Below are positions 5,568 through 58,784 of a DNA stretch of 58,784 nucleotides, in pieces. The DNA is from Lachnospiraceae bacterium (GTDB taxonomy: Bacteria > Bacillota > Clostridia > Lachnospirales > Lachnospiraceae). Both the position numbers and the translations under genes were made by a program. Under the pieces are notes generated by a model that was given only the letters and a program-made list of their open reading frames with translations, was not told where the DNA came from and did no database searches. Numbering within the stretch: the first letter of the stretch is position 1; each line of letters opens with the position of its first letter. The stretch covers positions 1-58,784 of the forward strand of contig JAIKYA010000067.1 in NCBI GenBank assembly GCA_024683645.1, in the 5' to 3' direction.

Positions 5568-5596
5568 TTGCTTTTAATATTGGCCTGTGGTAAAAT
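5568..5596 (+). promoter_or_regulatory. Sigma-A-type promoter of the phosphodiester glycosidase gene
   Basis: TTGCTT (5568-5573) is separated by exactly 17 nt from TAAAAT (5591-5596). The -10 box ends 8 nt before the in-frame ATG at 5605, so transcription would begin at about that ATG. Confidence 0.65.
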
Positions 5597-5604
5597 ATCT
5601 TGTT

Positions 5605-41949: not shown

Positions 41950-41968
41950 TGCTTCACTTTTGCTACGC
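41950..41968 (+). promoter_or_regulatory. 19-nt promoter-proximal box, copy 1
   Basis: TGCTTCACTTTTGCTACGC lies 56 nt before the start at 42024 and directly behind the kinase stop. The identical 19-mer is at 44772-44790. Similarity continues at the same spacing: 13 nt further comes ATGCAGATAA here and ATTGCAGCATAA in the other copy, where a -10 region would be. CCGGAT/ATCCGG (41970-41998) form an inverted repeat over this -10 region. It could be the -35 part of an alternative sigma factor promoter or an activator site. Confidence 0.6.
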
Positions 41969-42023
41969 ACCGGATGATAGAATGCAGATAATCCGGGAAA
42001 GAAGAAAGAAACGGAGGAGAAAA

Positions 42024-42695
42024 ATGCCGTCAGCCAGGAAGATGCTTATAGCAGGTAAGGAGTATACCGGAGAAGAGTTTAAGGCAAGACTTGAAGAGAA
42101 CAACTGGACAGCGGAGGATGACGAAAAGCTTATCGGAGCACTGTTTGAGAGTTATATGAAGGCACAGGAAGAAAATTCCAGAGTGAAGACTTATGAGACC
42201 CGGTCGGAACTGAAACGGGGGGAAGAATTATATACGCAGCTTCTGGAAAGCAGGCTGAGCCCGGAGAAGCAGGGAAAGCAGAAAAGAGAACTGCTCAGGG
42301 AAATCTGTAAATGGGAGAACATTGACGGAGAAGAAAAAAGAGCCATTGACGAATACCTGAATGCACTGGCATATACCGTTGTGCGTGAACGGCATGAGGC
42401 AGACAGGGAAGGCTTTGTGGAAAGCATGCAGTGGGCAGGCTGGAACCGCCCGGGAGATAAAAGCTTTCTTGAAAAACTATATGATGAGCGTATTGACAGG
42501 GACGGAAATATCAATAAAGAATTCGATGCGTTTTTAAGCGGCCTGGACAGAGAGGCCGGAGGCTTATCAGGCGACAGGGAAGAAATATATAAAAAACTTA
42601 AGACAATACTTGAAAAAATACCCGAGGGAGAACGCAGCACAGAGCAGAAAGAGCTTCTTGCGACTGCTCTGGCAGGCAGGCCCGGGACGGAGTGA
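42024..42695 (+). CDS. Unknown charged helical protein (candidate secretion substrate 1)
   Basis: I do not recognise this 223-residue protein. The start is set by ACGGAGGAG 5-8 nt upstream of MPSARKM; a longer frame from 41949 would run through the promoter box. It has no signal peptide or membrane segment, is about one third charged, and is helical throughout. WTAEDDEKLIGALFESYM and KSFLEKLYDERIDRDGNI could be two small helical modules. It is the first gene behind the first 19-nt box and is followed after 3 bases by another charged protein. Its place ahead of a T4SS locus makes a secreted effector or an effector chaperone possible, but that is inference. Confidence 0.7.
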   Translation: MPSARKMLIAGKEYTGEEFKARLEENNWTAEDDEKLIGALFESYMKAQEENSRVKTYETRSELKRGEELYTQLLESRLSPEKQGKQKRELLREICKWENIDGEEKRAIDEYLNALAYTVVRERHEADREGFVESMQWAGWNRPGDKSFLEKLYDERIDRDGNINKEFDAFLSGLDREAGGLSGDREEIYKKLKTILEKIPEGERSTEQKELLATALAGRPGTE

Positions 42696-42698
42696 TCA

Positions 42699-43634
42699 AT
42701 GGATGACAGAGTAACTGACAACAGAAGCTCCTACAGGAGTGAATATGAGAGGGAATATCTGCTCGGACTTAACATGCGCCGTATGGACAGCCTTATCGAT
42801 GATGCGTGGAGCGGGGAACATCCGGCTCTCCGTAATGCGATGATAGCCCTGCAGGACTGTGAACAGGGAACAGCCGAATGGAACGGGGCGGCAGCAAAGC
42901 TTGAGAACAGCATAGCTGTATATCTGGAAAGTCCCGTGGCAGAACATGTATCGGAGCTTAAAGGGATAAGTGAAGTGATCCGCAGGGAAGAAGTATATGA
43001 AGAATGCGGACTTACCGAGGGTGAAGGTCTTACTAACATGACGGAGGAGGAATGTGAGACCGAGCTTAAGGATATAGGGAAAAAGCTGGAAGCCCTGGAT
43101 ATGCTGGAAGAACTGATGCAGGACGGACAGGAGAGGCTTGCGGAGTTTTCGGAGATGCTGGAAGATACCGAGACTTATGGCTGGAAGGGCGATGAATACA
43201 TAAAACTCCGTGATGATCTCCACGGCTTTCTGCGTACCGACGTAACGATGACCGCCGCGGAGATAGCTTCAGCCGCAGGGATACTGTCGGAGAGTGCGGA
43301 GGCTTATTCAAAGATTTCGGGAAATGTTTCCGTAAACGAGCTGGCTGCGTATGCGGGAGAGCTGAAGCGGGGCATAGATGAGAAGAGCGGCATACTCGGC
43401 GCAAAGGAACCGCTGGATGAGATGCAGGGCAGACTGGATGCCAGAATGGAAGAACTCATAGATGTGTCGGAAAGATACAGGTTAAAGAAAAGCGAGAGAA
43501 AAAAGACAAGTATAGGGGAGCTTAAGCAGTCTGATGAGCCCGCGAAAAAACACAGGACAGAGACTGTACGTGAGACGAGAAATCTGCGGGACGGAGTAGT
43601 AAAGGCGGCGAATGTTTTTTTCGGCAAAAGCTAA
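42699..43634 (+). CDS. Unknown charged helical protein (candidate secretion substrate 2)
   Basis: The 311-residue protein has no recognised domain, signal peptide or membrane segment. Residues about 45-80 contain NAMIALQDCE, then KLENSIAVYLES, matching NVMTALAACE...KLSTECENYLSK in the protein encoded at 44870, so the two may share a helical module. Residues about 110-160 are acidic coiled coil. The C-terminal 60 residues are very basic (YRLKKSERKKTS, EPAKKHRTETVRETRN) and end VVKAANVFFGKS. A positively charged C-terminal tail is a known feature of some VirB/D4 substrates, which is suggestive only. It is coupled to the upstream gene with a 3-base gap. Confidence 0.7.
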   Translation: MDDRVTDNRSSYRSEYEREYLLGLNMRRMDSLIDDAWSGEHPALRNAMIALQDCEQGTAEWNGAAAKLENSIAVYLESPVAEHVSELKGISEVIRREEVYEECGLTEGEGLTNMTEEECETELKDIGKKLEALDMLEELMQDGQERLAEFSEMLEDTETYGWKGDEYIKLRDDLHGFLRTDVTMTAAEIASAAGILSESAEAYSKISGNVSVNELAAYAGELKRGIDEKSGILGAKEPLDEMQGRLDARMEELIDVSERYRLKKSERKKTSIGELKQSDEPAKKHRTETVRETRNLRDGVVKAANVFFGKS

Positions 43635-43649
43635 AGGAGATGCGCCTGT

Positions 43650-44240
43650 ATGAATGAAAAGATGGAGTTTTTCCTGCACGACATGTTCATGGAGATCATG
43701 AGCAGCCTGGATACTCTTGAGGATTATGAAGAAACGCTGGAGGCACTTTGGGAAGGGTGCCTCTTAAATATGTCTTCTGACGGAGAGACAGAGGAGGAAA
43801 GTGCAGAACGTCACAGGAAGGCGGAGGAACGACAGAAGCAGCTGGAAAAGGAAAAACAGGAAGCCGAGAAGGAAAGGGAGCGGGAGGCCATAGAGAGACG
43901 CATCCGCCTGCTCGACAATATCAGGGAGTTTCTGCTGTTGAACGATATCAGTACCATACCCGGCATACTGCCGGGACTCGAACTGTCAATGTTCATACCG
44001 CTCAAAGCGGTATGCAAGGCAGTAAGGAAGCTGCATCCGGATACGGATGATAAGGATATCGAACTTGACAGGAATGACAGGATGCTGGTGAAAGCGGAAC
44101 TGAGCCGTGTAAGGCTGCGCATGGAAGAACTTGGCGGAGGCGGAGGCAGGGTGCCGAAGAGGAGCGCAAAGGAAGTTCCCGTTAAAGAAAAAGAGCAGGA
44201 GATCCTTCAGTCTCCTGCCCATGTAAAGAAACTATATTGA
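43650..44240 (+). CDS. Unknown coiled-coil protein (candidate secretion substrate 3)
   Basis: This 196-residue protein starts behind AAAGGAGAT. After an N-terminal helical part (MEFFLHDMFMEIMSSL) comes a Glu/Lys/Arg coiled coil (about 48-90). A hydrophobic patch follows (LLNDISTIPGILPGLE) and then a helix-rich segment with KAVCKAVRKLHPDTDDKDIE. A GGGGGR hinge leads to a basic tail ending in SPAHVKKLY. No family is recognised. The stop overlaps the convergent gene at 44232 by nine bases. Confidence 0.65.
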   Translation: MNEKMEFFLHDMFMEIMSSLDTLEDYEETLEALWEGCLLNMSSDGETEEESAERHRKAEERQKQLEKEKQEAEKEREREAIERRIRLLDNIREFLLLNDISTIPGILPGLELSMFIPLKAVCKAVRKLHPDTDDKDIELDRNDRMLVKAELSRVRLRMEELGGGGGRVPKRSAKEVPVKEKEQEILQSPAHVKKLY

Positions 44241-44732
44241 CGGCCCGTTCTTTTCAAGATTTTTTTCGCGGCGTTTAACACTGCGCTGCTTCTGACGGTC
44301 CTTCGGAAGGAGAACACCTTCGCCGTCTTCCAGCACGGGACCGGATTTCACATCGGCTGCAGCAAGTTCTTTCAGCTTATCCTGTTTCAGGCTGTGTTTT
44401 GCCGCTGCTTTCTTTTCCTGGCGGCTCAATTCTTCAAAACTGATCTTTCTGCGTACTTCCGTGGATGCTTCCTTAAAGCTTGCGGTCTCTTTAGTCATTT
44501 CCTCCTGGAGATTCATAACATTATCCAGCAGACGGCTGACTTCTTTCCTTGCGGCATTTACTTCGGGAGTGCTTTCATCCGTCATGATGCGGTCCATCAT
44601 TCCGCTCTCAAGGGTGGCCAGATAGCTGTCAAGTTTTTCGGCGGCCTTAACAATCTGTTTTTCTTTTTCGAGAAGCTGTTTCAGGGGAAGTTTGATATCG
44701 GGGTTGTTCGGTTTCTTTTTAGCTGCCGGCAT
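44232..44732 (-). CDS. Unknown lysine-rich helical protein (candidate chaperone or substrate)
   Basis: The 166-residue protein has a perfect AGGAGGTGA site on the minus strand, which strongly supports it although it is the only minus-strand gene between 37439 and the window end. It begins with a basic patch (MPAAKKKPNNPD). A long coiled-coil region covers about 20-100, followed by a basic tail (PKDRQKQRSVKRREKNLEK). There is no signal peptide or membrane segment and no recognised family. It lies between two blocks of charged proteins and is convergent with the gene at 43650 and divergent from 44870. Confidence 0.7.
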   Translation of the reverse strand: MPAAKKKPNNPDIKLPLKQLLEKEKQIVKAAEKLDSYLATLESGMMDRIMTDESTPEVNAARKEVSRLLDNVMNLQEEMTKETASFKEASTEVRRKISFEELSRQEKKAAAKHSLKQDKLKELAAADVKSGPVLEDGEGVLLPKDRQKQRSVKRREKNLEKNGPSI

Positions 44733-44771
44733 GATGTCACCTCCTGTATATTTTTTTCAGTATAACATTTT

Positions 44772-44790
44772 TGCTTCACTTTTGCTACGC
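44772..44790 (+). promoter_or_regulatory. 19-nt promoter-proximal box, copy 2
   Basis: TGCTTCACTTTTGCTACGC, identical to 41950-41968, lies 80 nt before the start at 44870. It is followed at the same distance by TATCATTGCAGCATAA, the likely -10 region. It also lies about 40 nt upstream of the divergent gene at 44732, so it may influence both. Confidence 0.6.
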
Positions 44791-44869
44791 CCACTGTTGT
44801 ATCATTGCAGCATAAAATGAAACAGGAGTTTCAGGCAGCCGCATAAGGCGGGAAAAAGGAGAAAAAGCT

Positions 44870-46720
44870 ATGACATTTAATGATTTTCTGGCATTTAAAA
44901 GAGACCTTCTTGCAGTAATGGATATTGATCAGAGCGGGTTAATAAAAAGCATGTATCAGGAATTCTGTCTGGATGAAGATAATAAAAGATATTTTGACTT
45001 AAATGAGAATGAGATCGCAGAGCTCGATCCCGAAAAGAAGGAAGCTGTTGAGAAAGCTATATCCAAACTGGCCGGGGATGTCGCGCAAAGCGTGAATAAT
45101 CTGGATGCAGAGGGTTTAGAAGAATATAAGGAAAAGATGAATTCACACTCGGAGAAGCTGGCCCCGGAAGATCAGGCATTGGAGATCGAGGGCGAAGCTG
45201 TTATTGTGGATGAGAATAATGAGGAAGAAATCGTAAACAATGTCCGGGGGATCGAGATCGATGAAAACGGAGAAAAGTCATTTGATGATTTCGTGATACT
45301 TGAGAACGAGCAGAATGCTGTCGGACAGGCGGATAATAAAGAGTTCGTTGATGATTTCGTGATACTTGAGAACGAGCAGAATGCTGTCGGGCAGGCGGAG
45401 AATGAAGGACTCAATGAAGGTCTCATAGATGATTTTGAGGTCATCGATGACCAGGTGCAGAACAACGAAGAGCTGAATGAGGAGCAGCTGCAGGACGCTG
45501 CAGATAACGGAGAAATTGCCGCCAATATAGAAGATAATGTAAATGAGAATGATCAGCTCAATGAAAACAATGCTGAAGAGCTGGTAAATGCTGAAGAGAA
45601 TAACATAAACGAAGAGCAGATCATTGAAAATAACGGGGAGAATATCGATAATATCGAAAACCATAATGAGAATGAAGTACAGCCTGAAGAGAACAATGAG
45701 AACGAAGACGAGATAAACCGTGAAGAAAATGAGAACAATTTAGAGAATAACGAAAACATTAACGAAAACGAAGAAGATGCTGTCGTAAAGAATGATGAAG
45801 TAAAAGAAAACGGGGAGAAAGATCCCAAGCTTGATGCGGAGGAAAAGAAAGACGAAACCGAGATAGATGAGCTTGACGAAAAACAGTATAAAGAGGAAAT
45901 GGATAAGCTGGATGCCGGACTTGCCAATGCGGAAGAACTCGGGGAGATGAATTCCGAAATGAAGGAGCTCGGAAGTGCACTCAGAAAGCAGAATCCTGTA
46001 AGGGATAACTATACCATAAACGTGATGACGGCACTTGCAGCCTGTGAGAAACTCGATGATAACTCTACTGTTTCGGAAATGAAGGCGGCATACGGCAAGC
46101 TTTCAACTGAATGTGAGAATTATCTCTCGAAGATGGACAACGGCAGTTATAAGAACAGTAAGAATGAAGAACTTCGTGAAATGTTTGAAGGTATCGGACA
46201 GAAGGCAAAAGATATCTTTAATGATATCGATAAAAAAGTCTGGTTCGGGGATAACGAAGAAGACAGCTTCGAATACGATAAGCCCATAAGCAGGATCAAA
46301 GAGGAGCTGCAGCAGAAGAAGGAGACTCTGGAAGAAGAGTATACGAAATACGGCGGAAGGCTTAAGAAGAAGGAAGAAAAAGAGAAGGAAGAAGACGGGA
46401 TCAAGGACGAGAAGGAGCATGAGAAAAAGGAAGAGAACAAAAAAGAAGAGCCCGAAAAGGAAGAAGAACCATACAGAATGGCTGTGAACAGGGAAGGCTG
46501 GGGCAAGGAACACTTTATATATGAGTCAAAGTATTCAAAGAAGACTAACGTGGAGAACCTGATAGAAGAGGAAAAGAAGGAGAACAATAAGGACAGTAAA
46601 AGAAAAGAAAAACCCGATTACAGTAAACTCAGGATATCCAGAGGATCAAGTTTTGAGATAAAGGGCGAAGAAAATGATGTAATGGAGAATAACAAGGCTC
46701 TGGTACCGAAGAAGAAGTGA
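44870..46720 (+). CDS. Large acidic Asn/Glu-rich protein (candidate secretion substrate 4)
   Basis: The 616-residue protein starts behind AAAAAGGAG. The N-terminal 110 residues are helical (MTFNDFLAFKRDLLAVMD). Residues about 110-330 are low-complexity, dominated by Glu, Asn and Asp, with a 22-residue unit (DDFVILENEQNAVGQA...) twice in tandem. Residues about 370-500 are a folded helical part with NVMTALAACE and KLSTECENYLSKMDNG, shared with the protein at 42699. The C-terminus is Lys/Glu-rich, with EPYRMAVNREGWGKEHF and then a basic end (NKALVPKKK). No signal peptide or membrane segment is seen. The gene is A-rich compared with its neighbours because of Asn and Lys codons. Confidence 0.75.
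   Translation: MTFNDFLAFKRDLLAVMDIDQSGLIKSMYQEFCLDEDNKRYFDLNENEIAELDPEKKEAVEKAISKLAGDVAQSVNNLDAEGLEEYKEKMNSHSEKLAPEDQALEIEGEAVIVDENNEEEIVNNVRGIEIDENGEKSFDDFVILENEQNAVGQADNKEFVDDFVILENEQNAVGQAENEGLNEGLIDDFEVIDDQVQNNEELNEEQLQDAADNGEIAANIEDNVNENDQLNENNAEELVNAEENNINEEQIIENNGENIDNIENHNENEVQPEENNENEDEINREENENNLENNENINENEEDAVVKNDEVKENGEKDPKLDAEEKKDETEIDELDEKQYKEEMDKLDAGLANAEELGEMNSEMKELGSALRKQNPVRDNYTINVMTALAACEKLDDNSTVSEMKAAYGKLSTECENYLSKMDNGSYKNSKNEELREMFEGIGQKAKDIFNDIDKKVWFGDNEEDSFEYDKPISRIKEELQQKKETLEEEYTKYGGRLKKKEEKEKEEDGIKDEKEHEKKEENKKEEPEKEEEPYRMAVNREGWGKEHFIYESKYSKKTNVENLIEEEKKENNKDSKRKEKPDYSKLRISRGSSFEIKGEENDVMENNKALVPKKK
45284..45415 (+). repeat. 66-bp tandem repeat in the acidic protein gene
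   Basis: Two units of 66 bp (45284-45349 and 45350-45415) are almost identical over their first 50 nt, which begin GATGATTTCGTGATACTTGA. A third, degenerate copy starts near 45428 (DDFEVIDDQVQN). The near-identity at DNA level suggests recent duplication. Confidence 0.8.
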
Positions 46721-46741
46721 TCAGTATTTGTGCCTTTGGGG

Positions 46742-46771
46742 TTTACAAAACACATTATGTTGCGGTATAAT
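46742..46771 (+). promoter_or_regulatory. Promoter of the DUF1292-like gene and possibly the secretion operon
   Basis: TTTACA (46742-46747), 18 nt, TATAAT (46766-46771). The expected transcript start is near 46778, about 46 nt before the TTG start at 46824. This is an ordinary sigma-A type site, unlike the 19-nt box class. Confidence 0.65.
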
Positions 46772-46823
46772 TTTCAAGATATAATGTAAATAGTGGGATA
46801 TTATGTGAACAAGGAGAAGCTAT

Positions 46824-47387
46824 TTGGACGAGGAATATACAAGAGTCATACTTGAAGATGCCGAGGGAAAAGAACATGCTTTTCGCCCGGTGCTTTCACT
46901 GGCTGTAAATGACAGGGAATATATAGTTTTACAGCCGGACCGTGAGGGCGGCAGGGATGAACTGGCTATCTTCGGTTTTCATGCGGGACCGGATGATGAG
47001 ATGATACTGGACGATATCGAAGATGAGGCCGAGTATGCGGAAGTTGCGGCTGAAGCGGAAGGCATACTGAACGGCACCACCGAGACAGAAGAGTTTCTGG
47101 TAGATAACGGAGCGATCCCCGAAGAAGAGATGGCGAGGCTGCGGGAAGAAGCACTTAAGGAAGAGGAAGAAGACGAGTGCTACGAGGATGAGCAGGGAAG
47201 GCTCTTCATATTCTCGGACGAAGGGAAACCGGTATATCTGGATGACGACGGTGTCCCGATGTATCAGGATGAGAACGGAGAGAGGATATACAAAGGCAGG
47301 GACGGCATATGGTACTACCTTGATGAGAACGGCGATAAGATCTATCAGGGAGAGGACGGCGAGTGGTATTACTACGATGAGGAATAG
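46824..47387 (+). CDS. DUF1292-like protein with acidic aromatic repeats
   Basis: The start is a TTG with AAGGAG 8 nt upstream. The first 85 residues resemble DUF1292/YrzB (DAEGKEHAFRPVLSLAVNDR, then EYIVLQP and AEYAEVAAEAEGIL). The next part is an acidic linker (EEEMARLREEALKEEEEDE). The last 55 residues repeat a short unit, D(E)NG(E/D)-I/W-Y-x-G/Y: FIFSDEGKPVYLDDDG, YQDENGERIYKGRDG, WYYLDENGDKIYQGEDG and EWYYYDEE. This looks like the cell-wall/choline-binding type of beta-hairpin repeat but without a signal peptide. At 187 residues it is about twice the usual DUF1292 length. The function is unknown. Confidence 0.8.
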   Translation: MDEEYTRVILEDAEGKEHAFRPVLSLAVNDREYIVLQPDREGGRDELAIFGFHAGPDDEMILDDIEDEAEYAEVAAEAEGILNGTTETEEFLVDNGAIPEEEMARLREEALKEEEEDECYEDEQGRLFIFSDEGKPVYLDDDGVPMYQDENGERIYKGRDGIWYYLDENGDKIYQGEDGEWYYYDEE

Positions 47388-47459
47388 GAAACACAGTGCC
47401 GGTTTTTGAACGTACATTAAGATCATGAAAATGATATATAAAAAGAAGGAGAAAAAACA

Positions 47460-47741
47460 ATGAGCGAGACAATCTACAAAACCGAGAAAAGGATCGACAT
47501 CAAGACCGCGCCAAAGCTGGAAGCAGAGCTTAAGGCTTTTGCAGAGGCAGGCAATTACGATCTGGTGATCGATATGGCTGAGACTACATATATTTCTTCA
47601 GTAGGTCTCAGGGCTCTTCTTTCCATGCAGAAGGAGGTAAACAAGCACTCCGGTATGATGCTCATAAGAAACGTGTCCGAAGCAGTACGTGATGTATTTG
47701 ATGTTACAGGCTTTTCCGGACTGCTTACGATAGAGGAATAA
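47460..47741 (+). CDS. STAS-domain anti-sigma factor antagonist
   Basis: This 93-residue protein is a single STAS domain of the SpoIIAA/RsbV type. ETTYISSVGLRALLSMQKEV contains the conserved Ser-Ser pair where partner-switching kinases phosphorylate the antagonist, and the C-terminus (FDVTGFSGLLTIEE) is typical. AGAAGGAG precedes the ATG. No anti-sigma kinase or sigma factor is adjacent; its place 17 bases from a CPBP protease gene and just before the T4SS genes is notable because it may connect the locus to a partner-switching signal. Confidence 0.9.
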   Translation: MSETIYKTEKRIDIKTAPKLEAELKAFAEAGNYDLVIDMAETTYISSVGLRALLSMQKEVNKHSGMMLIRNVSEAVRDVFDVTGFSGLLTIEE

Positions 47742-47757
47742 GCGGAGAAAAGGAACA

Positions 47758-48630
47758 ATGGCGGGAGAAAACATGAAAGATCTCAGCACCCAGCAGAAGA
47801 TCTGGGTATATACAGCCTGTTTTCTGAGAGCTTTATCTCCCCTGTTTTTGTATGCCCTCCTGCCAAGCGTCTTTATGGCGGTAGGTTATGTGTTCGGACA
47901 TTCGGATATGACACTTGAGGAATTCTTTTCCTACGGGGCCAATTTCTATTCGGCACTGGGCATATTTGTGGCGTTGTTCATTTTCCACAGACGGTCAAAG
48001 AAACGAGGCTCCACGCTTACCGAGGATGCGACGCTGTATTTTAAGGAAATGAAAGTACTTAAGGCTGCCGGCTTTTTCGTTTTCGGTTTTGCATCCGCCA
48101 CAGCGGTATCGGCGCTGATAACCCTGCTCCCGAAATTCTTCCTCACCGAGTCCTATCATGTATCGGTATCCAGGATGTATCTGGGAAGAGATTTTCTGCT
48201 GACGCTGTTCACCATACTGTTTACGGCGCCCGTGACCGAGGAGATCATATTCAGGGGATATATGCTGAATACGCTTCTGGAAAAGCTGCCCGAGCATATC
48301 GCCATCATAGCGACCAGCATCATATTTGCGCTTCTCCACGGCAGCCCCATATGGATGCTTTACGCGTTTCTGCTGGGACAGATCCTTGCAAAGACATCCA
48401 TGAAGGAAGACAACATAGCATACGGCGTGCTTTTGCACATAGGTTTTAATTCGACTTCGATCATCAATCTGTTCATAACCGAGAGCGAAACACTTAACAG
48501 AGCGCTTTTCGGAAGCAAGGCACTGATAGCCCTCTACGGGGTAGTGGGACTTCTTGTAAGCGTAGTGCTCGCGGGGCTCTACACCGGCCGCATTGAAAGG
48601 AGAATAAGGATCAATGAAGGAATGGTTTGA
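47758..48630 (+). CDS. CPBP-family intramembrane glutamic protease
   Basis: The 290-residue protein has about eight membrane segments. The CPBP (CAAX protease/Abi) motifs are EEIIFRGYML (about 162, with the catalytic Glu-Glu and Arg), FALLHGS (about 195) and LHIGFNSTSI (about 226). A cytoplasmic basic loop lies at about 80-90. Members cleave prenylated or other membrane peptides, or give immunity to bacteriocins. Its end overlaps the VirD4 gene by 17 bases, so it is translationally coupled to the secretion locus and may process a membrane component or substrate. Confidence 0.88.
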   Translation: MAGENMKDLSTQQKIWVYTACFLRALSPLFLYALLPSVFMAVGYVFGHSDMTLEEFFSYGANFYSALGIFVALFIFHRRSKKRGSTLTEDATLYFKEMKVLKAAGFFVFGFASATAVSALITLLPKFFLTESYHVSVSRMYLGRDFLLTLFTILFTAPVTEEIIFRGYMLNTLLEKLPEHIAIIATSIIFALLHGSPIWMLYAFLLGQILAKTSMKEDNIAYGVLLHIGFNSTSIINLFITESETLNRALFGSKALIALYGVVGLLVSVVLAGLYTGRIERRIRINEGMV

Positions 48631-50692: not shown

Positions 50693-50698
50693 CAGATA

Positions 50699-52477
50699 AT
50701 GAAAGAGAAACTATTCAGATCCCTTTTGAAAGTTGCTGCAGGAGCTGCTTTGTCTGCAGTCCTGTTCAATATACCTGACGGAGGCGGCCTTTGCAGGGTT
50801 TATGCCGCGGCCACCGACGATGACGGAGAAAAGGGAGCGGACAGATCAGGCGAGCTGGATATTCTGAAAAGGCTCGGGGATTATGCAGGGACTGAGGATC
50901 TGAGTGATTTTGTCCAGAACTCCGGGTTTACCACTACTACCACGAATACGGCATATGATCCGACGAGGGATATAAACAACAGCACGACAGACGCACCGAA
51001 CAAGCTTACGACCGGAGTGGATCCTACTACGGGAATGAAGACGGTAACCCAGGAGGTGGGCATAGGTGAAAGTTATCATCAGGATTACGATACCTATGAG
51101 CTGAGTCTGAACGACAGGTTTTTCTTTTACAGTAATGTCGGTAACGGAGCCATCACTTCGAATCCCGTAACATTGGAGATGCCGGCCAATATCTTCTTTA
51201 CCTGCGAGAAAGACGGAGTACCCTATGCCGCACAGAGCGGAAAGCGTATCACGGAAAAGGGTACCTATGTGTTCAGTCTGACAGCTACCGAGACGGTGGT
51301 AGATACCATATATATCTATACGGCTACTTACCGTTTCCGTATCGCGGATAAGTCGGCCGGGACCGGCGATGATGTTACGGATCCCCAGCAGCCTTATGAT
51401 ATAGATGAGGAACCCGGACTGCTGGATCCGGTAAATACCGAGCCTGAGGAACCGGAGCTTTTGTCACCCGCAGATGAAGAGTTTGACGATGCGGGACTTA
51501 CCGAAGAGGAAAAAGCGGCGCTGAGCGAGATACTTAATGAAGAAGAGGATGACGGCGAGATCGGAGCAGTCATGAATGATGACGGAAGCATCAACAGGAA
51601 TGCAATAGAAGAACTGACAGGACAGCTTGATCCGGGCGACATATATACGACAGAGGGTATCAACAGACGTACCGGTATGGCCAGCAGCTATGACTATACC
51701 AGCGGCTTATACAAGAACACCTTGCGTAACAGCATGAGTTTCTATACGGATATCCCGAATGGCATGATCACCAGAAGGGAAGTGACTCTGCGTACCACCG
51801 ATGATCTGAGCTTTACGATATATAAGGACGGCCAGCCTTTTGAGTTCGATCCGGAACAGAAGATATCCGAACCGGGAAGCTATACCATAATACCCGTTGC
51901 CGAGGATGTGCTGTATTATGACGCATATCAGAGTGAGACTCCGATATTCGCCTTTAGGATAATCGGGGCGGCAGTGAACGACCTGTCGGTATACCGTGCA
52001 CCCGAAGGCTTTACCATAAGCGAGATAATGGTAGACGGTCTGTCTGCAGAGGATGTAAAGAGGATCAGCAGTGATGCGGTACTTCTGAGAGAAGACGGGA
52101 AATACACCATAACCGTAACCGACGGTGACAGGACCATAGACACCGAGTTCCTTCTTGACAGGGTAAGACCCAGGTTCTATGTGAGCGTGGAAAAGAACAA
52201 GGCGTCCTTTGCATACAAATCTACCGATGTTTCGGAAACGATCATATATAAGGACGGAGAGCTGATCTCCAGCGGAAATATCCAGAACCAGGTGAAGTCT
52301 CCCGGAAAATATGAAGTGTTTGCTGTAGATAAAGCCGGAAACAGGGGCAGGAGTGCCTTCACGGTCAAGTACGGTTTCAATAAGGGAGCTATCGCAGCCA
52401 TAGTACTGGTAGTGGCAGCCATAGCCGGACTTATAGGATACATGAGGGTTATCAATTCAAAGGTAAAAGTGAGGTAA
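50699..52477 (+). CDS. Secreted bitopic surface protein with three repeated beta domains
   Basis: Residues 1-38 look like a signal peptide (LFRSLLKVAAGAALSAVLF, then VYAAA), and a membrane segment lies at about 563-583 (GAIAAIVLVVAAIAGLIGYM) with a short basic end. The outer part contains three related modules. Two have the pattern FY(S/T)-x-NG-x-IT-x-VTL followed by KDG...KGTY (about 145-205 and about 340-405), and a third is shorter, IIYKDGELISSG then PGKYEVFAVDKAGN (about 515-550). An acidic Pro/Glu linker separates the first two. No named family is recognised. It lies between the coupling ATPase and the channel genes, so it may form an outer part of the apparatus or an adhesin. Confidence 0.75.
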   Translation: MKEKLFRSLLKVAAGAALSAVLFNIPDGGGLCRVYAAATDDDGEKGADRSGELDILKRLGDYAGTEDLSDFVQNSGFTTTTTNTAYDPTRDINNSTTDAPNKLTTGVDPTTGMKTVTQEVGIGESYHQDYDTYELSLNDRFFFYSNVGNGAITSNPVTLEMPANIFFTCEKDGVPYAAQSGKRITEKGTYVFSLTATETVVDTIYIYTATYRFRIADKSAGTGDDVTDPQQPYDIDEEPGLLDPVNTEPEEPELLSPADEEFDDAGLTEEEKAALSEILNEEEDDGEIGAVMNDDGSINRNAIEELTGQLDPGDIYTTEGINRRTGMASSYDYTSGLYKNTLRNSMSFYTDIPNGMITRREVTLRTTDDLSFTIYKDGQPFEFDPEQKISEPGSYTIIPVAEDVLYYDAYQSETPIFAFRIIGAAVNDLSVYRAPEGFTISEIMVDGLSAEDVKRISSDAVLLREDGKYTITVTDGDRTIDTEFLLDRVRPRFYVSVEKNKASFAYKSTDVSETIIYKDGELISSGNIQNQVKSPGKYEVFAVDKAGNRGRSAFTVKYGFNKGAIAAIVLVVAAIAGLIGYMRVINSKVKVR

Positions 52478-52480
52478 GCT

Positions 52481-53686
52481 GTGCAACCGGTTAGTTTGGG
52501 AATACTTGACGGTATACAGAAAGTGCTGCAGTGGATCTTTAACGAGGTCTTCGTTCCCGTGCTCAAGGATGTGTTCAATATCGTATTCTATATGATAAGC
52601 GATATGCTGAGTGACATCTTCGGGGAACTGCTTCTGAAGGCCTGGGTCGCACTGCTTAAGCTGATCAATTTCATCGAGTCGATCTTTAATATCTTTTCAG
52701 GTTATACCCAGATCAAAGTCGAAAACGTTGATTCCAATCAGGGTATACTCCAGTATCTGTTCGGCCTGCCGGTGGTGCAGAGGGCAATGCTCCTTATTAC
52801 CGCCGTATCCTTTGTGCTGGCAATGCTGGCGACCGGTATAGCGGTCATCCAGTCTATGGGCGATTCCATTGCGGAGAACAAGAGACCCATCAGTACGGTG
52901 CTCAGGGAAGCGCTTAAAACTGCGGTAACCTTTATGATGATACCTTTTGCCTGTACTTTTGCCATAGAAATGATATGCCAGATACTGAGAGTGATCGGAA
53001 CCGCTCTGCTCATAAGCGAAAACCAGAGCCTGGGCGACTGTATCTTCTATGCGATAGCGCAGTCCCACGGAAAGAAAAAAGGCTATGAGGCGTTCGCTTC
53101 AAACAATAAATTCCAGGATATCGCAGGGGTCCAGAAGTTCTTTGAATATAAGAAATTCGATTTCCTGATAGCCATCATAGTCTCGCTGTTTCTGATGATG
53201 ATACTTATCACTACCATAGTGCAGTTTATACAGAGACTTTTCATGATAGTGATCCTGTATGTCGTAAGTCCTATTTTTGCAGCATATATGCCCCTTGACG
53301 GAGGAAAGAGCTTCAAGCAGTGGAAGGATGCTTTTGTGGCATTTATGATAAGTGCTTTTTCACCGATAGTGGCGATGCGGCTGTACATGGCGACACTGCC
53401 GCTGATGCTGAGTTCGGATATGGAAATAGGCAGCGGTATTGACAAGACGCTGATGAAACTGCTGCTGATACTCGGCGGATCGTTCGCGATATATACAAGC
53501 AGGAACATGCTGGTGAAGCTGTATAACCCTTCACTCGGAGAACAGCTTGATGCCAACAGCTTCCTCATAAACATGGCACTCGGAGGCATAGGCGGTCAGA
53601 TCCGTCAGGCACTGCGTAATCCTTCTACAAAGGAGAAGAAGGATTCAAAAGATGATAAGGATGATAAGAAGGACGAGAAGAAGTAG
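52481..53686 (+). CDS. VirB6/TrbL-like channel protein, copy 1
   Basis: The GTG start has GAGGTAAG upstream and is 3 bases from the previous stop. The 401-residue protein has an amphipathic N-terminus (LDGIQKVLQWIFNEVFVPV) and about seven membrane segments. FMIVILYVVSPIFAAYMPLD, then GGKSFKQWKDAFVAFMISA, is the conserved centre of firmicute VirB6/TrbL-like proteins. The C-terminus is a charged tail (KEKKDSKDDKDDKKDEKK). It is clearly homologous to the next protein: both share the FNVF/FNIF start, the ILxYLF or ILEFFF turn and the SPIFAA or APFFAA...PLDxGxxFKxWKD block. Both probably line the inner-membrane translocation channel. Confidence 0.85.
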   Translation: MQPVSLGILDGIQKVLQWIFNEVFVPVLKDVFNIVFYMISDMLSDIFGELLLKAWVALLKLINFIESIFNIFSGYTQIKVENVDSNQGILQYLFGLPVVQRAMLLITAVSFVLAMLATGIAVIQSMGDSIAENKRPISTVLREALKTAVTFMMIPFACTFAIEMICQILRVIGTALLISENQSLGDCIFYAIAQSHGKKKGYEAFASNNKFQDIAGVQKFFEYKKFDFLIAIIVSLFLMMILITTIVQFIQRLFMIVILYVVSPIFAAYMPLDGGKSFKQWKDAFVAFMISAFSPIVAMRLYMATLPLMLSSDMEIGSGIDKTLMKLLLILGGSFAIYTSRNMLVKLYNPSLGEQLDANSFLINMALGGIGGQIRQALRNPSTKEKKDSKDDKDDKKDEKK

Positions 53687-53716
53687 CAGGGGACGATAAC
53701 AGGGAAGAGTAACAGT

Positions 53717-56308
53717 ATGGAACAGGTATATTTAGGGCTTTTGTCCGACCTTTTCAACAAAATATTCAAGAAGATCATTCAGCCTGTACTGACTTTTGTA
53801 AGCGGTATACTGGAGTCTATCTTTTCGTGGGTTTTTGACAATATCTTAAAACCGCTGCTGATCAACTTCATCATTCCCGTGCTCAAGGGCTTTATAGAGA
53901 TCATATTTGAGATGCTCGCTGCGCTGATCTACAGCATCTATGTGCTGCTGTTAAAGGTCATAGACACGGCGCAGACTCTATTCAATGTATTCGGCGGTAT
54001 AGATACCATAGTATACAAGAAAAAGAAGATGAACATACTGGAGTTTTTCTTCAGTCAGAAGTCGGTACAGACAGCCGCCTGGATACTTATAGCACTGTCT
54101 ATAGTCCTGCTGCTTGCATTCGCGGTAGTTGCCGTAATAAAATCCGTCGGTGATCTCGGCGATGAACAGCGGCCGGTCACCAAGGTGCTGCATGCTACTT
54201 TTCAGGGCTTTACCAAGCTCATAATGATCCCCATTGTATGTCTGTTTATGATAATGCTTGCAAATGTGGTGCTGTCGGCGGTTAATACGGCGATTATAAC
54301 GGCCCAGACCGGGAAGACGGAAACCACGACCGTGGCAAGGACGCTCTTTGTCATGACCACTTTCAATGCAGCACAGAACGATAAATATAATGCAAAGACC
54401 GCGCCCAAAGACTTTAAAGTCGGCGTGGACGATGAACTGAGAAAGAAGTATTACTATAAAGACGCCAACGATTCCTTTAAATTTGACCAGCTTGATCAGA
54501 TCGAAAAGGATTTCAAGTATTCTAAGATCGATTACCTGGTTGGTTTCGGCGCGGGACTGCTGCTTCTGTATGTGCTGTGCTCCGGCGTGTTCAAGTTCAT
54601 CAACCGTATGTATAACATACTGATACTCTTTATACTTGCACCTTTTTTTGCAGCATCACAGCCGCTTGATGACGGTGAGAAGTTCAAGTCATGGAAAGAT
54701 CTGTTTGTGGGGCAGCTGTTCTCGGCATACGGCTCGGTAGTGGCAATGCAGATATATCTCCTGATAATGCCCTCCGTACTGGCAGGAAAGCTCGGATTCG
54801 GACTGAGCACCGAGGGTGACTATGTCATTAAGGTACTCTTCCTTCTGGGCGGAGCATTCTCCGTACAGAGTGCAGGTCCGCTGATCACCGGTCTGATCGA
54901 TTCCACATCTGCCTCCATGGAGAGACAGCAGGATATGGCATTCTACGGCGGACTGCGTTCTGCTTATGCCTGGGGCAAGGAGATTAAAGGGGCTTTTGCG
55001 GTACGTAAGAATATGGCTCAGCGTCAGGAACAGCAGAAGCAGATGCTCGCCAAGGCAAGAGCCGAGGGAGCAGCAAGTGTCGGAGGCGGCAAGGGCGGAA
55101 AGGCACTGCCGGGCGGCGGCAGCGGTAATAAAGGCCCCGGAGGGATCAGCAAGCAGGCAACGGGCAAGGAAGTCAGAAAAGCAGCTCTGGCTCAGGCACA
55201 GAAGAAGGCTAAAGATACCGCTATCAAGAACGGTACGTACAAGCCGCCCAAGAAGCCGGATCCCAAGGCTCCGAAGCCCGGTGTTACGGGCAGGTTCCTT
55301 GGCGGATTGTTTACGGTCGGTAAAGACGCCCAGGGCAAGAGACGTGTCGGCCTCAATCTCGGCAAGCATTTCAACTTCGGAATGCAGAAGGACGGTACAT
55401 ACAAGTCCAATATCTTCGGCTTCGGAAAGAAATACGACAAGGACGGCAATCTTGTCAAGAAGAGTATGCCGTTTGTGCGCATGACCAAGGATGCGGACGG
55501 CAAGTTCAAGGTATCGAAGGTAAAGATATCAAAGGGTCTGCAGTTCAGGAAGGCAGAGACCCTGACAACGGATGCAGAAGGCAAGATAACCGGAAGGAAA
55601 CAGGGCGGCTGGTTCTGCTCGGATTTCTCGCCGCTTAACATGCACAAGGCATTCGACCAGTCCACAGGCAAGGTGGAGACTCTCGGTTCCATGTTCATGA
55701 GCTACCAGAGAGTGGAAGGACCCGACGGAAAGGTAAGCTATGTAAGGAAGGAAGCGAACGTTTTCGGAAAGACCCTTGCAAAGTGGGATGTGGACAAGAA
55801 TGGAAAAGAATACAATTCCTATATCAATGCGGGTGTTACGGATCTGCATTACGGTGTCAATTCGGAAACAGGTGAAAGAGAGCTTACGAAGGTGACAAGC
55901 TTCGGAGGAAAGAGCATCTACGAGCATGACCTGCCTGAGCAGGCGGCACCGGGGCTTGAAATATCGAAGGGAGCAGACTTCTCCATCGACGGCGAAAAGA
56001 AGGGGCACGACTTCTCATCAAGCAGCGGAAGCAGCTTCAGTATCAGCGGAGAACAGAAGGGACACGACTTCTCATCAAGCAGCGGAAGCAGCTTCACAAT
56101 CGGTGGAAATGAAAGCCACAGCGTGGGCGGAAACACAGGCGCACCGACACATGACTTCGGAGGAAGCAACATCGGTGGCAGCGGTGCGCAGACATCTGTA
56201 CCGACACATGATTTCGGAGGAAGCAACATCGGTGGCAGCGGCAGTAACGACAGCAGCAACAGTGGCGGAAGCAATGGCGGCGGAAGACCTACAAGAAAGA
56301 AAAAGTAA
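53717..56308 (+). CDS. VirB6/TrbL-like channel protein, copy 2, with long repeat-rich tail
   Basis: Residues 1-400 repeat the membrane layout of the preceding protein (LFNVFGGIDTIVY, LFILAPFFAASQPLDDGEKF, KSWKDLFVGQLFSAYGSVV). From about 410 on the protein is hydrophilic. First comes a basic Gly/Lys/Ala stretch (about 430-520). Then follow about nine beta-hairpin-like units with (K/T)D-x-x-G-K (about 530-745, for example MTKDADGKFKV, TTDAEGKITG, VDKNGKEY). Last come Gly/Ser repeats. The tail of about 460 residues is unusual for VirB6 proteins, although extended VirB6 proteins are known in Rickettsiales. It could project from the channel or be exported. Confidence 0.85.
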   Translation: MEQVYLGLLSDLFNKIFKKIIQPVLTFVSGILESIFSWVFDNILKPLLINFIIPVLKGFIEIIFEMLAALIYSIYVLLLKVIDTAQTLFNVFGGIDTIVYKKKKMNILEFFFSQKSVQTAAWILIALSIVLLLAFAVVAVIKSVGDLGDEQRPVTKVLHATFQGFTKLIMIPIVCLFMIMLANVVLSAVNTAIITAQTGKTETTTVARTLFVMTTFNAAQNDKYNAKTAPKDFKVGVDDELRKKYYYKDANDSFKFDQLDQIEKDFKYSKIDYLVGFGAGLLLLYVLCSGVFKFINRMYNILILFILAPFFAASQPLDDGEKFKSWKDLFVGQLFSAYGSVVAMQIYLLIMPSVLAGKLGFGLSTEGDYVIKVLFLLGGAFSVQSAGPLITGLIDSTSASMERQQDMAFYGGLRSAYAWGKEIKGAFAVRKNMAQRQEQQKQMLAKARAEGAASVGGGKGGKALPGGGSGNKGPGGISKQATGKEVRKAALAQAQKKAKDTAIKNGTYKPPKKPDPKAPKPGVTGRFLGGLFTVGKDAQGKRRVGLNLGKHFNFGMQKDGTYKSNIFGFGKKYDKDGNLVKKSMPFVRMTKDADGKFKVSKVKISKGLQFRKAETLTTDAEGKITGRKQGGWFCSDFSPLNMHKAFDQSTGKVETLGSMFMSYQRVEGPDGKVSYVRKEANVFGKTLAKWDVDKNGKEYNSYINAGVTDLHYGVNSETGERELTKVTSFGGKSIYEHDLPEQAAPGLEISKGADFSIDGEKKGHDFSSSSGSSFSISGEQKGHDFSSSSGSSFTIGGNESHSVGGNTGAPTHDFGGSNIGGSGAQTSVPTHDFGGSNIGGSGSNDSSNSGGSNGGGRPTRKKK
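55994..56254 (+). repeat. Two sets of 57-bp tandem repeats in the VirB6-like tail
   Basis: Set A has units at 55994-56050 and 56051-56107, coding for KGHDFSSSSGSSF plus six residues. Set B has units at 56141-56197 and 56198-56254, coding for PTHDFGGSNIGGSG plus five residues. Both unit lengths are 57 bp (19 codons) and both contain a HDF core, so the two sets may descend from one ancestral unit. Near-identity within a set points to recent duplication or conversion. Confidence 0.85.
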
Positions 56309-56340
56309 TCAGAATCAGTTAACACGGAGGATTTCAAAAG

Positions 56341-58784
56341 ATGAGGGTAATACCCAAAAGAACAAAGGTAAGGCTTGAATTATTCAAGGGCGTGGAGGTC
56401 ATAGATGTTCTGGTCGGCTCCGCGGGATTCGCACTGGCTGTTTCAGTCTTTCTCTCGAACCTTCCGGCACATATAATGGTGTCGGTGGTAATAGCCATTC
56501 TCACCGTAGGTCTGGTCATCCCTCTGGGGGACGATAAGGGTTATCTCTTTATCTTCTACGCGCTGAAGTACCTTGGAAGAAAAAGGGTGTTCGTCAGGAA
56601 AAACGCAGTTGATGATTCGGGCAAAAAGAAAAAGGGTATTCTTGATGTGATACTTCCGGCTGCTGATTTCACTGTTGAGGATATAACTCCTTTTACGGGG
56701 ATTGACGGCAAGTTCATTGAGTACGGTTCTTCTTACAGTGCGGTGGTTATGAGCGTTCCTTCGGTGGAGTTCCGCTTTTTCAGTGAGAACAGACAGAATT
56801 CCGTGATAGACCGCTGCTTTGCGGCCATACTTCGTACAGCATCACTTGACGAGGTGATCAACCTTGTCAAGGTGGACAGACCGGTGATATATGATGAGTT
56901 CATCACAAACGAACATAAAAAGATAAGCGAGCTGAAGGAGGCTTATCTTAACGGGCTGCTGGAAGAGGATGAGCTGACTACAAGAGTAGGCATAATCTAC
57001 GACCGTATCGCGCAGCTGGAGGAATTTGATTATAAGGATAAGATATACCAGCCGCAGCATTATCTGATGTTCTGTTTTAAGGACAGGGATTTTATACAGT
57101 CACAGCTTGAAAATGCGATCCAGACCTTTGCGAACAACAATATGGAGTGCAAACAGCTGGAGGGCAGGGAACTGGCAGTATTTCTGAAGTATCAGTACGA
57201 CATGGTATTTGATGAGAGGGAGATCGAGAAGATAGATCCTTCGGAATGGATGGACTGGATACTTCCCGATACCATAAAATTCACGACACGTACTGTACAG
57301 TATGACGATCTGATAACACATAATTTCCGCTTCAGGGATTATCCCACAGTGGTAAACAATGCCTGGGGTGCCGGCTTCTTTAACAAGCAGGGTACCAGGG
57401 TAGTGATGAAGATGACTCCGGTTGAAAGGTACAAAGCCGTGCGTCAGATCGACCAGTCCATCGATGAACTTAGAGAGCAGGAAGCCACAACTGCAAAGGC
57501 TTCAAAGATAATGGAAGTCGGAACTCATATAGATACGCTGGCCGAGGTGCTGAGACTCTTACAGGGAGAGAATGAGATACTCTTCAACGTGGCTACATAT
57601 GTTCAGGCCAGGGATTATGAGCTTTCGGAGCATATGGCCGATGTGGAGGCAGGCAGGTCACCGAAGCTTAAAAGCTCAGCCTTCGGTTTCAAAAAAGAGG
57701 TACGAAGGGAACTGGCCGAAGAAGGCTTTAAGGTAACGGATAACATGATGCAACAGTTTGAAGCATATGCTTCCGCGATGCCTTCGGCTTACGATGCATT
57801 CAAAAAATATGAGAGAGGAATACATTCGTCATCAGTGGCGGCTGTATTTCCTTATGTTTACAAGGCACTGTGTGATGATAACGGTCTCTTCATCGGACAA
57901 AGCGGAGGAGTACCTGTATTCATCAACTTCTTCAGAAGAGACAGCGAGAGAGTCAACTCCAATACGGTCATCATCGGTAAGTCAGGTTCCGGTAAATCTT
58001 ATGCGACCAAAACCATACTTACCCAGCTCGCTGCTGAGAACAGCAAGATATTCATACTCGATCCCGAGAACGAGTATACCAAGCTGGCAGCCAACATGAA
58101 GGGCAAGATCATCGATGTCGGTACCGCTACCCAGGGAAGGCTGAATCCTTTCCATGTCATTACCGGACTGGCAGACGATGAAGGCAGTGATGAAGAGGCT
58201 GCGGCAAACAGCTTCTCAACGCATCTGCAGTTTCTGGAAGAATTCTACAGACAGATACTTCCGGGGCTGGACGGTGAGATGCTGGAGCTTCTGAATAACG
58301 TGACGACTCACGTATACCTTGACAGGAATATCGACAGCGATACGGATCTGAGCAAGCTGTCACCTTCGGATTTCCCGACCTTTGACGATCTCCATGAGAG
58401 AGTGCTGGACGAGTACCAGACGACGGGAGAGGGTCACAGAAAGGAACTGCTCGGCAAACTCATAACACATGTGAGCAAGTTCGCTACGGGAGGCAGAAAC
58501 TCCGCATTGTGGAACGGTGAGGCGACCATCTCCACTCAGGAGAATTTCATAGTGTTCAACTTCCAGTCGCTGCTGGCCAATAAGAACGGTACCATCGCAA
58601 ACGCGCAGATGCTTTTGGTGCTCAAATGGCTGGATAACGAGATAATAAAGAACAGGGAATATAACATGCGTTACAATGCGCAGCGCAAGATAGTGATAGT
58701 TATAGACGAGGCTCACGTGTTCATTGACTCCAAATACCCGATAGCGCTTGATTTTATGTTCCAGCTGGCAAAGCGTATCCGTAA
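56341..58784 (+). CDS. VirB4-type ATPase with fused VirB3/PrgI-like N-terminus (3' end outside window)
   Basis: An ACGGAGG site precedes the ATG, and the frame stays open to the last base (about 814 residues visible). Residues 1-85 are a basic start with two membrane segments (VIDVLVGSAGFALAVSVFLS and HIMVSVVIAILTVGLVIPLG), then YLFIFYALKYLGRKRVFV, which resembles PrgI/VirB3. Residues about 90-500 are the VirB4 N-domain. The ATPase core follows with Walker A IGKSGSGKSYATK (about 545), FILDPENEYTKLA, then LNPFHVI and Walker B VIVIDEAHVFIDSKYP (about 785). It powers assembly and transport through the T4SS channel. The arginine-finger region lies beyond the window. Confidence 0.92.
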   Translation, partial: MRVIPKRTKVRLELFKGVEVIDVLVGSAGFALAVSVFLSNLPAHIMVSVVIAILTVGLVIPLGDDKGYLFIFYALKYLGRKRVFVRKNAVDDSGKKKKGILDVILPAADFTVEDITPFTGIDGKFIEYGSSYSAVVMSVPSVEFRFFSENRQNSVIDRCFAAILRTASLDEVINLVKVDRPVIYDEFITNEHKKISELKEAYLNGLLEEDELTTRVGIIYDRIAQLEEFDYKDKIYQPQHYLMFCFKDRDFIQSQLENAIQTFANNNMECKQLEGRELAVFLKYQYDMVFDEREIEKIDPSEWMDWILPDTIKFTTRTVQYDDLITHNFRFRDYPTVVNNAWGAGFFNKQGTRVVMKMTPVERYKAVRQIDQSIDELREQEATTAKASKIMEVGTHIDTLAEVLRLLQGENEILFNVATYVQARDYELSEHMADVEAGRSPKLKSSAFGFKKEVRRELAEEGFKVTDNMMQQFEAYASAMPSAYDAFKKYERGIHSSSVAAVFPYVYKALCDDNGLFIGQSGGVPVFINFFRRDSERVNSNTVIIGKSGSGKSYATKTILTQLAAENSKIFILDPENEYTKLAANMKGKIIDVGTATQGRLNPFHVITGLADDEGSDEEAAANSFSTHLQFLEEFYRQILPGLDGEMLELLNNVTTHVYLDRNIDSDTDLSKLSPSDFPTFDDLHERVLDEYQTTGEGHRKELLGKLITHVSKFATGGRNSALWNGEATISTQENFIVFNFQSLLANKNGTIANAQMLLVLKWLDNEIIKNREYNMRYNAQRKIVIVIDEAHVFIDSKYPIALDFMFQLAKRIR

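Follow-up and report, generated by a model that had tools for sequence, protein, structure and literature searches.

The window, that is, the whole stretch of DNA analysed here (58,784 nucleotides), is the entire contig JAIKYA010000067.1 (C51) of the Lachnospiraceae bacterium assembly GCA_024683645.1 (3.11 Mb, 203 contigs), and its right-hand part carries an island with genes of a type IV secretion system (T4SS), preceded by a two-component pair and five charged, soluble orphan proteins. The original prediction, made from the sequence alone, had placed here VirD4, two VirB6-like proteins, VirB4, a CPBP protease, a STAS protein and a DUF1292-like protein, each of which is confirmed at its place by Pfam and NCBIfam matches, and had described five charged upstream orphans without signal peptides, which indeed have no Pfam match over cut-off and, as judged by eye, no signal peptide. 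The orphan at 44232–44732 lies on the minus strand, unlike the other four, and the Ig-like protein IgA (50699–52477) and the two-component pair (39188–41948) had been overlooked. The island genes within the window are as follows, percentages being identities to the homologues in the relative G013, which has the same island with the same flanks, spread over two contigs:

39188–40018, plus strand: response regulator with receiver domain, a linked regulator (Pfam Response_reg, 2.3e-19).
40015–40719, plus strand: small protein with several transmembrane (TM) segments between response regulator and histidine kinase (by eye; no Pfam match at 0.001).
40716–41948, plus strand: histidine kinase, a linked regulator (Pfam His_kinase, 3.8e-18).
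42024–42695, plus strand: chg1, charged soluble orphan (no Pfam match over cut-off; 58%).
42699–43634, plus strand: chg2, charged soluble orphan with the weak C-terminal motif RKKTSIGELKQS (63%).
43650–44240, plus strand: chg3, charged soluble orphan (70%).
44232–44732, minus strand: chg4r, charged soluble orphan with the strong C-terminal motif RRKISFEELSRQ, 73 residues from its end (88%).
44870–46720, plus strand: chg5, charged soluble orphan of 616 residues (932 in G013; 41%, over residues 331–616 only).
46824–47387, plus strand: DUF1292 protein with YYxDExG-like repeats (Pfam DUF1292, 4.1e-9, over cut-off).
47460–47741, plus strand: STAS-domain protein (Pfam STAS, 3e-15, over cut-off).
47758–48630, plus strand: CPBP (CAAX-type) membrane protease (Pfam Rce1-like, 2.6e-19, over cut-off).
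48614–50692, plus strand: VirD4 coupling ATPase (Pfam T4SS-DNA_transf, E 5.7e-50; NCBIfam CD1115 family, 296.6 bits, cut-off 250).
50699–52477, plus strand: IgA, a core component with signal peptide, extracellular region and C-terminal TM segment (by eye; 70%).
52481–53686, plus strand: VirB6-like membrane protein (MMCAP2_0566 family, 178 bits, cut-off 90).
53717–56308, plus strand: VirB6-like membrane protein, extended at its C-terminus by a long repetitive region (MMCAP2_0566, 191 bits, cut-off 90).
56341–58784, plus strand: VirB4 ATPase (Mbov_0397 family), running off the contig, with its end in contig C162 at 2–448.

The frame of chg1 is open from 41949, and 42024 was chosen as its start, as the residue that matches the first residue of the G013 homologue. 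Six other genomes (G013, G018, G032, G006, G022 and G010) have homologues of the two-component pair adjoining the system, a homologue of the response regulator occurs at greater distance from the system in G014, and the small TM protein between the pair has a homologue only in G013 among the contigs compared. The final 141 bp of the window are the initial 141 bp of C162 (30,763 bp, same genome), an overlap that looks like a junction in the assembly graph, and the join of the two contigs is supported because G013 carries the same island between the same flanks. The island continues on C162 with:

462–1253: SBP, a family-3 solute-binding lipoprotein.
1336–1638: YFDSPKN, a small protein.
1635–2861: IgB, a second Ig-like protein.
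2909–3229: VirB2-type pilin of 106 residues (Pfam T4SS_pilin, 40 bits, cut-off 26.6; NCBIfam Mbov_0395 pilin family, 51.8 bits, cut-off 40).
3186–7466: lipoprotein of 1426 residues.
7490–8161: TM protein.
8171–10126: third VirB6-like protein.
10123–11307: YunG-domain protein.
11283–11828: last TM protein.

With these, the parts of the T4SS superfamily were all found: VirB4 ATPase, VirD4, polytopic VirB6 and pilin. To the left the island is flanked by EAL, GH95 and MCP proteins, and beyond its right end C162 encodes an arabinofuranosidase, a MATE transporter, an ABC transporter, a P-type ATPase and enolase; a tRNA search of both contigs returned none in the window or in C162. The claim that the codon style of the island is like that of its neighbours was compared as guanine-cytosine content only, which is 0.44–0.50 inside the island and 0.47–0.52 to its left. 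In the suggested comparison of the island among relatives, here between the window and G013, VirD4 is 96% and VirB4 91% identical, whereas the orphans are 41–88% identical.

A relaxase plus integrase just beyond the window, which the original prediction had named as the mark of an ordinary integrative conjugative element (ICE), is not what lies there, as C162 ends in chromosomal genes and no MOBP or MOBT relaxase and no tyrosine integrase was found at the island; relaxases of the MOBV, MOBQ and MOBF types were not searched. The genome has no match to PF03432 or PF02486, and its four tyrosine integrases are all on contigs other than those of the island. The MOBP profile, which as a control recovered four of its training relaxases as expected, gave no match in 148 scanned stretches (2.6 Mb in all, some overlapping). 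Among the Phage_integrase matches listed for eight genomes (27 of 29 in G142, 18 of 20 in G122, 14 of 15 in G128, part of those in G134, all in G000, G013, G403 and G436) none lies inside any locus, a result that covers the tyrosine type only, serine recombinases and att repeats not having been searched; the nearest of those listed is about 18 kb outside the Hungatella hathewayi locus (27 of 29 listed). An ordinary ICE was rejected on these grounds, namely no MOBP or MOBT relaxase and no tyrosine integrase at the locus and chromosomal genes on both sides, and the system is best read as resident in the chromosome and unlike ordinary conjugative elements. In PMC3158045, VirB4 clusters without a relaxase are classed as putative protein exporters, and the present locus, with two relaxase types searched, is such a cluster.

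The spread of the system was scanned with a 12-sequence VirD4 alignment, which gave at least 588 pattern matches, 478 of which encode some relative of VirD4 (E 1e-3). The locus set consists of the best 80 of these 478 (VirD4 62–96% identical), all titled Clostridia and from about 77 genomes, and named strains with the system include H. hathewayi DSM 13479 and Butyrivibrio sp. WCD3002. Within flanks of at most 10 kb the 80 loci hold VirD4 (80), VirB6 (67), IgA (61), VirB4 (56), CPBP (50), SBP (39), STAS (38), IgB (25), the response regulator (22), YFDSPKN (22) and RsbW (20), and more rarely DUF1292 (12), VirB2 (12), PP2C (10) and the histidine kinase (7), the counts of the later components being limited by flank length. 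In an order-wide sample the system occurs in 24 of 392 genomes and 12 of 173 genera (E 1e-180), and a similar core-gene complement recurs across families. Within the genus of the source genome it is patchy, with 10 of 34 genomes positive (nine by VirB4, and G010 by IgA). VirD4 is 95–62% identical across 11 homologues, and its nearest named relative in the VirD4 tree is from a Lachnospiraceae bin (95%). In that tree 81 members are split from three plasmid homologues, whose branches are very long, by a long supported branch, and family labels are clustered (10 changes against a shuffled mean of 14.8, with none of 200 shuffles as low). The complete chromosome of H. hathewayi holds one full locus beside rplU/rpmA (names by eye), with regulators, CPBP, VirD4, IgA, two VirB6, VirB4, SBP, YFDSPKN, IgB and VirB2, followed by STAS, a lipoprotein of 1260 residues, PP2C, RsbW and a soluble orphan of 1465 residues. 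An M48-peptidase-like membrane protein (by eye; L154, 10280–11224, minus strand) stands among the last genes of this locus.

Known T4SSs resemble the system in part. Like the Mycoplasma and Spiroplasma ICE T4SSs (Mbov_0395/0396/0397, MMCAP2), it has a pilin and VirB6 proteins over the family cut-offs and a matching VirB4; mycoplasma ICEs transfer DNA (PMC12857230). Its VirB4, however, is under the Mbov_0397 cut-off of 590 bits (NF045975), the truncated frame reaching 431, as are the full-length homologues of G013 (543 bits) and H. hathewayi (562 bits). All 2002 plasmid records with a VirB4 match are under 60% identity, the best 15, mostly Spiroplasma, being 26–29% identical. The present system, for which no relaxase was found with the two types searched, adds the Ig-like proteins, the giant lipoprotein, SBP, YFDSPKN and often a partner switch. 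The mycoplasma-named matches of pilin, VirB6 and VirB4 hint at a shared ancestor of the clostridial and mycoplasma systems. VirD4 is a member, over cut-off, of the family of the clostridial CD1115-type conjugation systems, but all 3420 plasmid records with a VirD4 match are under 60% identity and the best 15 are 25–38% identical. In the two plasmid relatives inspected with wide flanks, a MobP2 or MobP3 relaxase lies no more than about 12 kb from virD4, and the surroundings also encode topoisomerase or TOPRIM proteins and peptidases of the C40/M23 types; PLSDB classes the two as non-mobilizable. A third was inspected with 3 kb flanks only. The Streptococcus suis 89K T4SS is likewise a Gram-positive T4SS and has published protein-secretion evidence (PMC12857230), whereas that island reportedly mobilises itself through its T4SS (PMC3132442) and the present locus is resident, with candidate cargo of its own and a shared motif. 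The T4SSs of Patescibacteria (Saccharibacteria) are from monoderms and have VirB2-like pilins, and the pilin here matches Pfam T4SS_pilin; in Southlakia the T4SS includes VirB1-like and VirB8-like proteins as well as an array of six pilins (PMC12857230), none of which was recognised here.

Reading of C-termini by eye brought out a motif, R[RK]x[IVLM][ST][LFY]x[ED]L, that is shared by YFDSPKN and unrelated orphans and lies some 30–130 residues before the end. Candidates and controls were defined by location, size (at least 300 residues), hydropathy and charge calculated without the last 40 residues, the motif not being used; eight duplicate loci were removed from the first set, and from the second, of later-fetched loci, proteins sharing their last 60 residues with the first. 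The candidate sets still contain housekeeping proteins, some doubtful open reading frames (ORFs) and some mutual homologues. Compared with the 141 controls of the first set, its 50 candidates have a more basic tail (net charge of the last 25 residues 1.96 vs 0.16, p 8e-5), more often a G-x-M-type ending (9 vs 6, p 0.004) and more often a match to the regular expression (13 vs 4, three of the four controls lying inside loci). The regular expression was noticed by eye before testing, and cleaner tests come from the later loci and from a 12-column profile built, to avoid circularity, from 25 YFDSPKN proteins only and scored by its best value in the last 130 residues. With this profile the medians are 4.3 for candidates and -2.6 for controls (p 3e-11), 17 of 50 candidates and 6 of 141 controls reach 8 bits (8 and 5, respectively, reach 10 bits), and 1.1% of shuffled candidates reach 8 bits; of the six controls at 8 bits, four are inside loci and two are, by eye, DNA ligases. 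The later-fetched loci gave medians of 1.7 vs -2.6 (p 0.0013), with 6 of 20 candidates and 1 of 32 controls at 8 bits or more (p 0.0099). In the two relaxase-bearing plasmid stretches none of 54 ORFs reaches 8 bits, one being at 6.8. Of the window's orphans, chg4r reaches 23 bits, chg2 about 5 (16.1 for the G013 copy, RKKMSFAELNEK) and chg5 about 4, while chg1 and chg3 have no C-terminal motif (the best score of chg3, 5.0 bits at 115 residues from the end, is not motif-like). The motif is tied to the locus and is not universal among orphans. Relaxases as carriers of the same signal were rejected, the regular expression matching none of three distinct ones (four loci, two identical). Scattered further substrates in the source genome were also dropped: a first genome-wide DNA pattern matched nothing, the known copy included, and a looser one matched 14 places, outnumbered by the 26 of the backward control. 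Six of the 14 are in frame and at most 130 residues from an ORF end, namely chg4r and five others that by eye look like a large enzyme (L202) or short or doubtful ORFs (L204, L205, L208 and L209). In L110 (1072–3642) a motif-like RSRKLSFKDM is internal, not C-terminal, and the signal may therefore not be strictly terminal.

The loci hold soluble charged proteins of 166 to about 2000 residues. Fifty-two such orphans have almost nothing alignable in common (mean column identity 7%), and a Pfam scan at E 0.02 matched 13 families in 18 member-family matches, mostly weak. One orphan carries an Ntox11 toxin domain over the Pfam cut-off (5.8e-15, 55.9 bits, cut-off 25). Three related orphans have the C39-like pattern GCWS, HYxTIVG, YYxDS (one weak Pfam match, 0.0056), and a kinase-like family has the pattern GxxDRHxxN..GIDxDxxFG, with weak Fam20C and PI3/4-kinase matches (best 0.0015 and 0.011); the residues of both patterns we take to be catalytic. 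A PDB sequence search with the kinase-like and C39-like alignments gave chance-level matches only (best 0.71–0.84), one of which, annotated H03A11.1, is presumably a Fam20. The orphans of the window change faster than VirD4 and VirB4, and the giant lipoprotein is also among the faster-changing island genes; chg5 has no paralogue in its own genome at E 0.1. In L188 (6424–11289; the genome of L114) three kinase-like orphans stand in tandem, two of them with KVALSFKEL 42 residues from the C-terminus.

Taken together, these data make it likely, in our judgement, that the locus encodes a complete, resident, non-conjugative T4SS that exports proteins. We infer the assembly of the channel and the recognition of the motif by VirD4 as follows. 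VirD4 and VirB4 would supply the energy for a channel built from VirB6-like proteins and a pilin of the VirB2 type; the two Ig-like membrane proteins and the giant lipoprotein would probably extend this channel across the thick cell wall and beyond it, under the control of the two-component pair and, in many loci, possibly also of a STAS/RsbW/PP2C partner switch. The genes of the predicted cargo, the large charged cytosolic orphans, lie in the locus itself; the motif and basic tail, common to several of these proteins and to YFDSPKN, may be recognised by VirD4 or by YFDSPKN as an adaptor; Gram-negative T4SS substrates often bear basic C-terminal signals. Toxins or enzymes might also be delivered into other cells, which is less certain than export. 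The wider proposal, of a widespread dedicated class of effector translocators in Gram-positive gut clostridia that would either inject large locus-encoded toxins and enzymes or release them, by way of a new C-terminal signal also borne by YFDSPKN, and act on neighbouring microbes or host cells, we put forward tentatively, at somewhat less than an even chance.

Several observations weigh against protein export by a resident system. Export, its target and its mechanism are themselves inferred, the relaxase search covered two types, and the core proteins are closest to conjugation families of mycoplasma ICEs. No VirB1 or VirB8 exceeded its cut-off in family scans of the island proteins, made with sequence profiles only; to the right of the window, where the original prediction had suggested looking for a VirB1/CwlT-like hydrolase, the rest of the T4SS was found and no VirB1-type protein over cut-off, SBP having a weak match to MltF (18.5 bits, cut-off 354). 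One of the five window orphans scores clearly for the motif, 8 bits is reached by about one in three of the candidates defined by location, the rest staying below, and in the 1465-residue orphan of H. hathewayi the motif was not seen, this protein being outside the 32 best profile scores. At other thresholds the separation is weaker (first set, 12 bits: 4 of 50 vs 3 of 141, p 0.078; later loci, 6 bits: 7 of 20 vs 4 of 32, p 0.058, and 10 bits: 2 of 20 vs 0 of 32, p 0.14), two of the six later-set hits are tandem copies, and since the members are partly homologous the counts are non-independent and the p values optimistic. The scored kinase and C39 matches are weak and below Pfam cut-offs. The source assembly is a bin (91% complete, 5.75% contamination), and H. 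hathewayi and H. effluvii are far apart in the VirD4 tree, so that some horizontal spread or paralogy is likely. The earlier functional interpretation, a protein-export system with substrates encoded in the island, is partly supported, the substrate claim being favoured by the shared motif and by the toxin domain and enzyme-like patterns at other loci.

Membership of the core proteins in conjugation families would also fit a relaxase-less conjugation machine that moves the DNA of other elements in trans, for instance by serving the relaxases of mobilizable elements, and PF03432 matches occur somewhere in 21 of 46 tested genomes that have the system, or 20 of 44 once two duplicates are removed. 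Where their location was determined, they are on a contig other than that of the T4SS or, on the H. hathewayi chromosome, about 340 kb away (this leaves out six relaxase-positive genomes, those of L090, L113, L124, L126, L146 and L148; for those of L074, L123 and L128 the T4SS contig was inferred from its length); MOBT (PF02486) was matched in one of 20 genomes, on another contig. However, 24 of the 44, many of them incomplete bins, have no PF03432 match, VirD4 conservation extends across families, three distinct relaxases read from these genomes lack the shared motif, and both wide-flank plasmid relatives keep MobP2 or MobP3 close to virD4; we regard transfer in trans as improbable. A surface appendage or adhesion organelle, with the orphans as structural or regulatory parts and the motif serving for docking, not export, seems to us unlikely also. 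The pilin over cut-off, the giant lipoproteins and the solute-binding lipoprotein would suit it, and YFDSPKN, itself a core protein, bears the motif; yet the orphans differ widely between loci, Ntox11 and enzyme-like patterns occur among them, and those of the window, together with the giant lipoprotein, rank among the faster-changing island genes. That the locus is the decaying remnant of an ICE we consider very improbable: its patchiness in the genus would agree with this, but the frames are long and intact, VirD4 and VirB4 are well conserved in G013, the core genes recur across families, and linked regulators accompany the system in seven genomes.

According to a 2019 review, the Gram-positive T4SSs characterised by then were all conjugative (PMC6540685). 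In a 2025 review that also covers Patescibacteria, S. suis 89K is described as the first effector-translocating T4SS of a Gram-positive bacterium (PMC12857230), and a December 2025 review treats Gram-positive effector T4SSs as a long-standing open question. Titles and abstract openings returned by literature searches contained no description of the present clostridial system, which is weak evidence of novelty, subscription journals and preprints being thinly covered. Many gut and rumen clostridia carry, as a normal part of the chromosome, a relative of the bacterial mating machine, apparently without its DNA-handling parts, and for this family of systems both the candidate cargo and a signal open to testing are defined. 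If effectors are exported, the system would supply a missing level of interaction of common gut and rumen bacteria with their neighbours or their host.

Among the loci a second sub-type was noted (L063/L058, L166/L167, L168/L169, L170, L174 and L176), with giant secreted proteins of the lip1928 and lip760 types and other orphans; in it other giant lipoproteins replace SBP, YFDSPKN and BigLipo. In L172 (11586–18788, minus strand), L161 (1604–7411) and L163 (1064–7210), proteins of 1935–2400 residues match the VirB2 pilin model and occupy the usual place of the giant lipoprotein.

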